From Chloroflexota bacterium (GTDB taxonomy: Bacteria; Chloroflexota; UBA6077), in the NCBI GenBank assembly GCA_021806765.1, contig JAJZQR010000348.1:1-5253 (forward strand): 5,253 nucleotides of DNA, read 5' to 3'. Below, in pieces: positions 3,360-5,253 of the stretch. Below the pieces are notes generated by a model. That model had not been told where the DNA came from. It saw only the letters and a program-made list of their open reading frames with translations, and searched no databases. Numbering within the stretch: the stretch's first letter is position 1; every line of letters starts with the position of its first letter. Position numbers and translations under genes: made by a program.

Positions 3360-5253
3360 ATGGAAGAGCGCTACCTGGAAACCCTGGAACTGAATAAGGT
3401 ACTGGAGCAGCTGGCGGGCCACGCATCCTTCTCCGTGAGCCACGAGAAGGCCCTCGCCCTGCGCCCAGCTGCCGGCATGACGGAGGTGCTGCGCCGGCAG
3501 ACGGCGACCCACGAGGCCAGAAGGCTGCTGGATCTGAAGCCCAACTTCAGCATCGGCGGTGCCAGGGACATCCGTCCCCAACTCCAGCGGGCTTCGGTGG
3601 GGGCCCTCCTGACTCCTGAGGAGCTGCTGCTGGTAGTCTCCACCATCGCCAGCAGCCGCATCGTTCGGGGCACCATCTCCAAGTTGGGGGATCAGCTGCC
3701 CACCCTGGAGGAGGTCACCCTCCCTATCGGCTTCCACGACGACCTGGAGCGGGAGATCCGGCGGGCCATCTCCGACACCGGCGAGGTGGTGGACTCCGCC
3801 AGCCCGGCGCTGGCCGGGATCCGAATGGAGCTGCGACGCTCCCACGAGCGGCTGATGTCCAAGCTGAACGAGATCGTCACCTCGCCCTCTTACCGGCAGG
3901 CCCTCCAGGAGCCCATCGTCACCCAGCGCGCGGGCCGCTACGTGGTGCCGGTGAAGGCCGATTTCAAGGGACAGATCAAGGGGATCGTCCACGACCAATC
4001 GGCCAGCGGGGCCACCGTCTTCATGGAGCCGCTGGTAGTGGTGGATCTGGCCAACCGATGGCGGCAGCTGCAGATCGACGAGGAGCACGAGATCGAGCGG
4101 ATCCTGCGACAGCTGGGCGGCCTGGTAGGCCGGGATTCCGAGGCACTGGAGCGGACCCTGGAGGCGGTGGCAGAGATGGACCTCTTCCTGGCTCAGGCGA
4201 AGCTCGCCGAGACCATGCGGGCGGAGAGTCCAGTCCTGATCGAGCTGTCCCAGAGACGACGGGGAGACGGGGAGACGGGGAGACGGGGTGACACGGAGAC
4301 GCGGAGACACGGAGACACGGAGAACCCAGAACCCAGAACCCAGAACCCAGAACCCATAGTACGGCTGATCAACGCCCGCCACCCGCTGCTATCGGGCCAC
4401 GTGGTGCCCATCACGGTGGAGTTGGGCGGAGATTTCGACGTCCTGGTGATCACTGGACCCAATACAGGCGGCAAGACCGTCGCCTTGAAGACCGTCGGCC
4501 TCCTCTGCCTGATGGCCCAGTGCGGCCTACAACTGCCGGCCGACGAGCACTCCGTCGTCGGGGTCTTCCGGGCGGTGTACGCGGACATAGGTGACGAGCA
4601 GAGCATCGAGCAGAGCCTGTCCACTTTCTCCTCTCACGTGACCCGCATCGTGGACATCCTGGGCAAGGCGGATAGCCAATCCCTGGTGCTGTTGGACGAG
4701 CTTGGCGCGGGCACCGACCCCCAGGAGGGTTCGGCCCTGGCGCGGTCGATCCTCTCCCACCTGCTGGAGCGTCAGGTGCCCGCCATCGCGACCACCCACT
4801 ACTCGGAACTGAAGAGCTTTGCTCACACCACCCCCAGGGTGGAGAATGCCTCGGTGGAGTTCGATCTGGAGACCCTGTCGCCCACATACAAGCTGAGCAT
4901 AGGGCTGCCGGGCCGGAGCAACGCCCTGGCCATCGCCACGCGGCTCGGCATGGGCCAGGAAATCATCGAAGGGGCAAAGCAGTTGCTGGAGCCTGCCGAC
5001 CTGGAAATCGAGGGACTGCTGGCCCAACTCCAGACGGACCGGGAGCAGGCTAGGGAGGCGAGGGCGGAGGCAGAAAGGCTGCGAGAGCAGACGAGGGCCC
5101 AGCGGGCGCGGCTAAACGCCGAACTGGCGGATCTGGACGACAGGAAGCAGGCCGTCCTGGAGCGGGCCCATGAGCAGTCGGAGCAGGAGTTGGCTGCCCT
5201 GCGACAAAAGGTGCAGCAGGTGACTCGGAAACTGGAGAGGGTACAAACGACGC
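3360..5253 (+). CDS. mutS2: Endonuclease MutS2 (3'-truncated by window edge)
   Basis: A MutS-family ATPase of the MutS2 branch, which lacks mismatch-recognition domain I and instead suppresses recombination or acts on branched DNA and, in some bacteria, on collided ribosomes. 631 codons are visible without a stop. The N-terminal core/lever region (1-297) contains the MutS2 hallmark RYVVPVKADFKGQIKGIVHD and following residues to MEP (193-224). The ATPase domain has Walker A GPNTGGKT (366-373), signature STFSSH (421-426), Walker B LVLLDELGAGTDP (442-454) with D446 and E447, and the His-switch TTHYSELK (478-485). A coiled coil rich in E, R, A and Q begins near residue 540 and runs off the window; the C-terminal Smr nuclease expected in this family is not seen. 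Residues 298-332 are encoded by tandem repeats and are not part of the family. It is divergent from the FAD oxidase gene and preceded by a leader stem-loop. Confidence 0.95.
   Translation, partial: MEERYLETLELNKVLEQLAGHASFSVSHEKALALRPAAGMTEVLRRQTATHEARRLLDLKPNFSIGGARDIRPQLQRASVGALLTPEELLLVVSTIASSRIVRGTISKLGDQLPTLEEVTLPIGFHDDLEREIRRAISDTGEVVDSASPALAGIRMELRRSHERLMSKLNEIVTSPSYRQALQEPIVTQRAGRYVVPVKADFKGQIKGIVHDQSASGATVFMEPLVVVDLANRWRQLQIDEEHEIERILRQLGGLVGRDSEALERTLEAVAEMDLFLAQAKLAETMRAESPVLIELSQRRRGDGETGRRGDTETRRHGDTENPEPRTQNPEPIVRLINARHPLLSGHVVPITVELGGDFDVLVITGPNTGGKTVALKTVGLLCLMAQCGLQLPADEHSVVGVFRAVYADIGDEQSIEQSLSTFSSHVTRIVDILGKADSQSLVLLDELGAGTDPQEGSALARSILSHLLERQVPAIATTHYSELKSFAHTTPRVENASVEFDLETLSPTYKLSIGLPGRSNALAIATRLGMGQEIIEGAKQLLEPADLEIEGLLAQLQTDREQAREARAEAERLREQTRAQRARLNAELADLDDRKQAVLERAHEQSEQELAALRQKVQQVTRKLERVQTT
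4261..4323 (+). repeat. Octamer tandem repeat (GGGGAGAC type) inside mutS2
   Basis: Eight units: three exact GGGGAGAC, one GGGGTGAC, then ACGGAGAC, GCGGAGAC, ACGGAGAC and a 7-base ACGGAGA. It encodes an Arg/Gly/Asp/Glu/Thr-rich stretch within mutS2. Positions 4261-4288 hold four GGGG runs separated by 4-nt loops, a canonical four-tetrad G-quadruplex motif on the coding strand and therefore also in the mRNA. Confidence 0.92.
4324..4356 (+). repeat. Heptamer tandem repeat (ACCCAGA) inside mutS2
   Basis: Four exact ACCCAGA units plus a partial ACCCA directly follow the octamer array. It encodes an Asn/Pro/Glu-rich stretch (NPEPRTQNPEP), after which normal MutS2 sequence resumes at RLINARHPLL. 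Neither a 7-bp nor an 8-bp unit is a multiple of three, so copy-number change shifts the reading frame. Confidence 0.92.

Follow-up and report, generated by a model that had tools for sequence, protein, structure and literature searches.

Dispersed Short Tandem Repeats as the Likely Origin of a Frame-shifting Repeat Block in the Linker of a Chloroflexota MutS2

What is a block of 8- and 7-bp tandem repeats doing inside the reading frame of a mutS2 gene: is it a switch that turns the protein off and on, or a repeat that has settled there? The question is raised by a 5,253-nucleotide stretch of DNA from a Chloroflexota bacterium (assembly GCA_021806765.1, contig JAJZQR010000348.1), referred to here as the window, in which mutS2 occupies positions 3360–5253 on the forward strand and is cut by the window end, with 631 residues lying within it. 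Our answer is that the block probably represents a single copy from a family of dispersed short repeats that settle in permissive, predicted-disordered linkers of conserved proteins, rather than a dedicated phase switch, and that selection acting on the host protein presumably holds it in frame.

The Repeat Block in the Gene and the Protein

The mutS2 product scores 716.5 bits as a whole protein against TIGR01069 (curated cut-off, 400), which places it within MutS2. The window's own protein is the database entry P0001 (819 residues), which is 100% identical over the 631 residues in the window and contains the PF20297, PF00488, and Smr (PF01713) domains. MutS2 is described as being without the mismatch-recognition and connector domains, and the Bacillus subtilis protein as splitting stalled ribosomes (PMC10897456), a range of roles wider than the control of recombination to which an earlier note on this DNA had assigned the gene.

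The block comprises two adjoining arrays on the forward strand, both found with Tandem Repeats Finder (TRF). The first, at 4258–4323, is an octamer array of 8.2 units, which splits into three copies of GACGGGGA, one of GACGGGGT, and then GACACGGA or GACGCGGA units (period 8, 89% matches, score 76); it scores 90 when read as period 24, with lower purity than at period 8. The second, at 4321–4356, consists of 5.1 perfect AGAACCC units (period 7, 100% matches, score 72), and this score was reached in none of 200 dinucleotide-shuffled windows, for which the top TRF score was 66. The two-part, in-frame repeat of octamers followed by heptamers that had been noticed earlier is therefore present in an open frame, with copy numbers of 8.2 and 5.1 in place of the eight and 4.7 first given.

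The structure of B. subtilis MutS2 (PDB code 7qv3) aligns to residues 1–293 and 330–817 of the window's protein, leaving residues 294–329 almost without a counterpart there. The block thus adds about thirty in-frame residues at the linker between the lever region and the ATPase domain, and the alignment bears out the insertion that had been proposed at residues 298–332, with its span shifted to 294–329. AlphaFold confidence (pLDDT) is about 50 over residues 301–320 and 61 over residues 321–330, between flanking strands at 292–295 and 334–339, and this low-confidence linker at the start of the ATPase domain reads as a predicted disordered loop.

The Linker in Other MutS2 Proteins

A protein search in which 7999 candidates were scored yielded 120 listed homologues, comprising P0001 itself, 22 close relatives with 73–86% identity (P0001–P0023 forming the close clade), and more distant proteins. 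Inserts of at least 8 residues follow the equivalent of P0007 residue 302 in 62 of the 120, as compared with 21 at the next most used point; counting by linker length alone gives 60, and the linker spans 15 to 103 residues across the whole set. Judged by these protein sequences, the lever–ATPase linker is the main insertion site among the 120 listed homologues, and the inserts differ between lineages. The view that the linker has no counterpart in MutS2 consequently fails at the level of position.

Within the close clade, long inserts are found in 8 of the 23 proteins (P0001–P0006, P0010, and P0023), whose linkers are 27–65 residues longer than that of P0007, and 14 have a short linker with no insert. 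P0008, the one protein left of the 23, has the linker SITHHSSL, and the same peptide occurs in the MutS2 of G099, the nearest genome found, where it is coded by (CATCACT)x3. Within the close clade, the linker was read as DNA for G099 alone and as protein for the other relatives, and the names octamer-like, REP-like, and heptamer-like reflect our reading of the protein sequences. An octamer-like start (RRRGDGETGRRGD, GDGETGRRGD, and similar) is present in six of the eight long inserts and is not clear in P0005 and P0006. Peptides resembling translated repetitive extragenic palindromic (REP) sequences (PLPKGEGQGEGW and LTPTLSQRERE) occur in the inserts of P0002, P0003, P0004, and P0010, and heptamer-like peptides are represented by NPEPRTQ in P0001, TQNSEPRTR in P0023, SAPSTQH in P0004, and HHSSLIT in P0010. 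Several inserts among the 120 look, to our reading, like other repeat families (for example, SPLSPWERAGGEG, TQHSALSTQQ, EIRNSKFEIRNS, and ETRGRGESPYPRVSASPRLPVSP). On a tree of the proteins, at least two changes of insert state fall on well supported branches, with P0008 coded as lacking the insert.

Repeat-motif peptides were found within the linker in 13 of the 120 proteins and elsewhere in none, using a motif list partly picked after the linkers had been viewed; a stricter list gave seven in the linker and none elsewhere, one of the seven (SPRLV in P0005) probably being native sequence. Confinement of the repeat motifs to the linker was nevertheless rejected, as heptamer arrays are also present at the DNA level in a second region of MutS2. 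This became apparent from 111 mutS2 loci, picked by best match (a choice favoring intact genes), which gave 78 distinct open reading frames (ORFs) past a motif filter, the other 33 loci giving no distinct passing ORF. TRF reported 70 rows in these ORFs, 16 of them in the 90 residues before the sequence ARHP. Nine ORFs (L006, L007, L021, L082, L093, L098, L105, L107, and L108) carry arrays of period 7, 8, or 14 in the linker, with differing units. A second cluster of 7-, 8-, or 14-bp arrays lies 313–418 residues after ARHP, in low-confidence stretches before the Smr domain (L007, L014, L028, L045, L089, L092, L093, L098, and L107), and three more rows of period 7 or 14 are found elsewhere in the gene (L006 twice and L091).

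All 78 frames stay open over 75 or more residues upstream of ARHP, and thus none is broken at the linker; no out-of-frame allele was found among these ORFs, of which the nine with linker arrays are the ones that bear on slippage. One mutS2 of the Anaerolineae (L001, genome G001) is interrupted in frame by a TAG at residue 223, which may stem from an error in sequencing or assembly. A slip at the linker was rejected as its cause because residue 223 lies far from the linker.

Dispersed Arrays in Related Genomes

The genome G099 (5.9 Mb) is a family-level relative and the sole representative of its family among the genomes searched; its MutS2 is 78% identical to that of the window over residues 331–819. 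Arrays of related 7- and 8-bp units are dispersed through it. A triple-heptamer pattern ACYCAKM (up to 2 mismatches) gave 76 matches as compared with 2 in the reversed control, the triple heptamer TCAGCNN gave 296 as compared with 4, and the octamer pattern gave 23 as compared with none.

Forty-one G099 arrays were examined for their hosts: every octamer match within 2 mismatches (16 arrays), and every heptamer match within 1 mismatch together with the mutS2 array (25 arrays). Another 23 heptamer arrays, at 2 mismatches, were translated only. On our interpretation of the family matches, 13 of the 41 arrays are located within genes that have recognized domains. The in-frame hosts are genes for a phage portal protein, GltD, UvrC (two arrays), a DinG-like helicase-exonuclease, RecG, an RND permease, a radical SAM/SPASM protein, a MalT-like LuxR protein, a LivM-LivG fusion, an M16 peptidase, a P-type ATPase, and MutS2 itself. 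An ABC-F protein identified with TRF is an extra in-frame case, bringing the domain-bearing genes besides mutS2 to 12. In RecG, the array lies before the wedge domain, with 160 residues upstream that have no Pfam match. In uvrC (L173:9444–9722), heptamer, octamer, REP-like, and heptamer pieces combine into an in-frame insert of about 94 residues, which lies inside the RNase H endonuclease domain. The remaining arrays are intergenic, lie at the ends of genes, or belong to ORFs for which Pfam gave no match. Of ten ORFs at arrays whose host gene was not clear, six had no Pfam match, and in none was a family split across the array. In-frame insertion into unrelated conserved genes, as known for intragenic palindromic elements, is therefore a property of G099, a relative and not the window's own genome.

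Beyond G099, an octamer-like peptide was detected in seven Mfd-like, DnaE2-like, PAS, and CHASE2 proteins, at E-values of 0.007 to 3.7. Arrays recur in DNA-repair genes, namely those for MutS2, UvrC, RecG, and the DinG-like protein in G099 and for Mfd-like and DnaE2-like proteins elsewhere (P0121, P0122, and P0125). A leaning of this kind has been published for intragenic REP sequences. We do not claim an enrichment, as the counts are 3 of 12 G099 genes besides mutS2 and 3 of the 7 other proteins, gathered post hoc and with no measured background.

Of 16 genomes in the order to which G099 belongs, 3 contained the octamer pattern and 6 the exact heptamer pattern. The reversed heptamer control outnumbered the pattern in three genomes (G075, 236 versus 27; G243, 12 versus 0; G227, 1 versus 0). 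The exact octamer-N(0–30)-heptamer composite was found in none of 400 Chloroflexota genomes, and a 23-base octamer pattern in none of the 10 genomes behind the first loci; a fixed composite mobile element was rejected on these grounds.

Other repeat arrangements were seen in the same searches. Genome G179 has 241 matches of each pattern, and in at least 7 of its 14 inspected octamer loci (among L206–L233; for example, L209, L217, L219, L221, L225, L227, and L233) a short loop separates the array from an inverted copy of it, forming putative hairpins that often lie within CACCACGGAG...CTCCGTGGTG. At L280, L282, and L283 of G099, the heptamer arrays close to gene ends seem to form inverted pairs, where the reversed unit GATGAGT contains TGA and may be used as a stop. 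A 12-bp direct repeat, GGCGAGCCACCT, present in 2.1 copies at four places in G099 (L118:4630–4654, L129:31–55, L170:10085–10109, and L171:7067–7091), is another dispersed repeat.

Reading Frame and Slippage

The mutS2 frame from 3360 stays open across the block up to the window end. Because neither unit is a multiple of three, single-unit slips would yield truncated MutS2 alleles. In simulations in which units were lost or gained at the start of each array (octamer changes at 4258), the altered frames hit TGA at 4289–4291 within the octamer array, TAG at 4357–4359 directly after the block, or TGA at 4592–4594. All three stops are on the forward strand and ahead of Walker B (LLDELGAG, 4689–4712); Walker A (GPNTGGKT) is at 4455–4478. 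The stops at 4357 and 4592 reported earlier were thus recovered, and the loss of one octamer or gain of two leads to the TGA at 4289, reached earlier than either and already inside the array, where a single variant unit of this impure array creates it. The frame is kept by slippage of three like units (24 or 21 bp) or, as the arithmetic of the earlier note had it, of one octamer together with one heptamer (15 bp).

Pure arrays behave differently. As neither 7 nor 8 is divisible by three, a pure array yields one peptide cycle whichever of the three frames is read (RTQNPEP for the heptamer, GDTETRRH and variants for the octamer), and pure AGAACCC and GGAGACAC/GC/GG arrays have no stop in any of the six frames. 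Since pure arrays of 7- and 8-mers can be read in every frame, it is mainly their total length that matters. Openness in six frames was considered as a special property of these units and rejected, being shared by 1180 of 2340 heptamers and 3730 of 8160 octamers; found in about half of such units, it is permissive and not diagnostic. For the related heptamers ACTCATC, ACTCAGC, and ACTCAGA, openness is limited to a single strand.

Discussion

We propose that arrays would land or expand in the MutS2 linker, where readability in every frame may let them enter genes and change length. Out-of-frame lengths would then be removed by selection and in-frame ones persist, with the MutS2 loop tolerating the insert.

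The block could instead be a phase-variable (contingency) switch, as the earlier note suggested, in which slipped-strand loss or gain of a single octamer or heptamer flips MutS2 off and on in a fraction of the cells. It does have what such a locus has, a tandem array within an ORF whose units change the frame, with alternative frames that stop before Walker B and a heptamer that is perfect over five units. There is also a precedent in Salmonella mutL, where small tandem repeats are reported to convert functional and defective alleles into one another, with slippage proposed (PMC2955026). Against this, all 78 mutS2 ORFs judged, including the nine with arrays, read through the linker, and in G099 related arrays turn up across a range of unrelated genes. 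Moreover, the insert sequence at the linker differs between relatives, which argues that no switch is conserved. With a recurrent insertion site, related in-frame arrays in other G099 genes, and no out-of-frame allele, the contingency locus is not supported, and we regard it as unlikely. A wider version of the same idea is that the frame-shifting arrays of 7- and 8-bp units found in genes for genome maintenance (mutS2, uvrC, recG, and the DinG-like gene in G099, with Mfd-like and DnaE2-like genes elsewhere) would jointly form a slippage-driven, reversible setting of genome stability, neighboring octamer and heptamer blocks restoring each other's frame; we hold this to be very unlikely.

Selection might alternatively have favored the insert itself as a functional linker, a charged and flexible tether tuning lever–ATPase coupling or the binding of MutS2 to the ribosome. 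The repeated use of the site in 62 of 120 homologues and the similar octamer-like start in most long inserts of the close clade would fit such a role, but the sequence and length of the insert vary freely and 14 of the 23 close relatives do without it, making this explanation quite improbable. An assembly artifact at a low-complexity stretch has in its favor that the P0001 protein cluster has one member, from one contig and one source. It is the least credible of the alternatives, and would be surprising given that the frame is intact across the array and that repeat-like in-frame inserts occur at the same place in records from several sources.

Several observations weigh against the origin that we prefer, in a dispersed repeat family. 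The perfect heptamer, over 36 bp, fits a recent expansion and is compatible with slippage. The heptamer arrays in the second region of MutS2 mean that the linker is not the sole site. The uneven presence of the patterns and the excess of controls in some genomes indicate that the exact families are patchy and that other 7-mer families exist and are abundant in relatives, and the missing composite implies that the octamer-heptamer pairing is not a fixed mobile unit. An empty site within a species, a target duplication, and a mobilizing enzyme were none of them sought with success. Finally, the low AlphaFold confidence may be partly due to the few sequences aligned in the insert.

The closest kind of known system is formed by intragenic REP and Rickettsia palindromic elements (RPE), with which the window array shares the presence of dispersed short repeats in frame within conserved genes (PMC3733652; review, PMC10969869). 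As reported in a 2013 survey, intragenic REP (GTAG/CGTC) sequences lean toward DNA-repair genes, with UvrABCD, RecBCD, DNA polymerase I, and DnaE2 listed as hosts; flexible linkers and loops are proposed as harmless sites, and effects on mutators are the subject of speculation (PMC3733652). The word "mutS" is absent from the main text of that survey. The window array is set apart from these elements by its tandem 8- and 7-mers without palindromy: no inverted repeat was found in 4200–4420. RNA folding at the array was no better than in shuffles (z = −0.12) and the window had no Rfam matches, so that, together with the absence of inverted repeats, an RNA or hairpin element in the window was rejected. 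REP-like peptides or palindromes do, however, adjoin such arrays in relatives.

The heptameric G-rich repeats of Xanthomonas and Nostoc are dispersed 7-bp G3N4 arrays, to which GGGTTCT on the template strand of the window is similar; their unit is reported as GGGNATC, under-represented in coding regions and with four units preferred (PMC4692102). The window unit departs from GGGNATC, and its array lies inside a gene, joined to an octamer array. Its GGG tracts with TTCT spacers (template strand, 4325–4355; two overlapping regular-expression matches, 4325–4348 and 4332–4355) form a putative G-quadruplex motif, as do four GGGG tracts with 4-nucleotide spacers on the coding strand (4261–4288, from the same kind of scan). 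Borg elements resemble the window array in having tandem repeats within ORFs; theirs are reported to make disordered regions and to have units divisible by three (PMC9879509), whereas in the window disorder of the loop is a prediction, the units are 8 and 7 bp, and related units are found in many G099 genes. Salmonella mutL, which like mutS2 belongs to the MutS/MutL world, also contains a short tandem repeat, and its allele conversion was measured (PMC2955026). Among the titles listed in literature searches, none concerned 7-bp tandem repeats in coding genes of Chloroflexota.

These findings suggest that short tandem repeats land repeatedly at the same place in a widespread protein. The readability of pure arrays in every frame hints at why units of 7 and 8 bp can be tolerated in genes. 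Slippage-prone arrays in repair genes would allow one to ask whether repeat invasion alters mutability.

Neighboring Genes

Two further genes were observed in the window. Positions 3–602 contain a partial gene of the uracil-DNA glycosylase superfamily (PF03167), which scores under the family-4 cut-offs, and an ORF of 98 residues at 1372–1668 has a YgiT-type/MqsA-like zinc finger and is possibly antitoxin-like.
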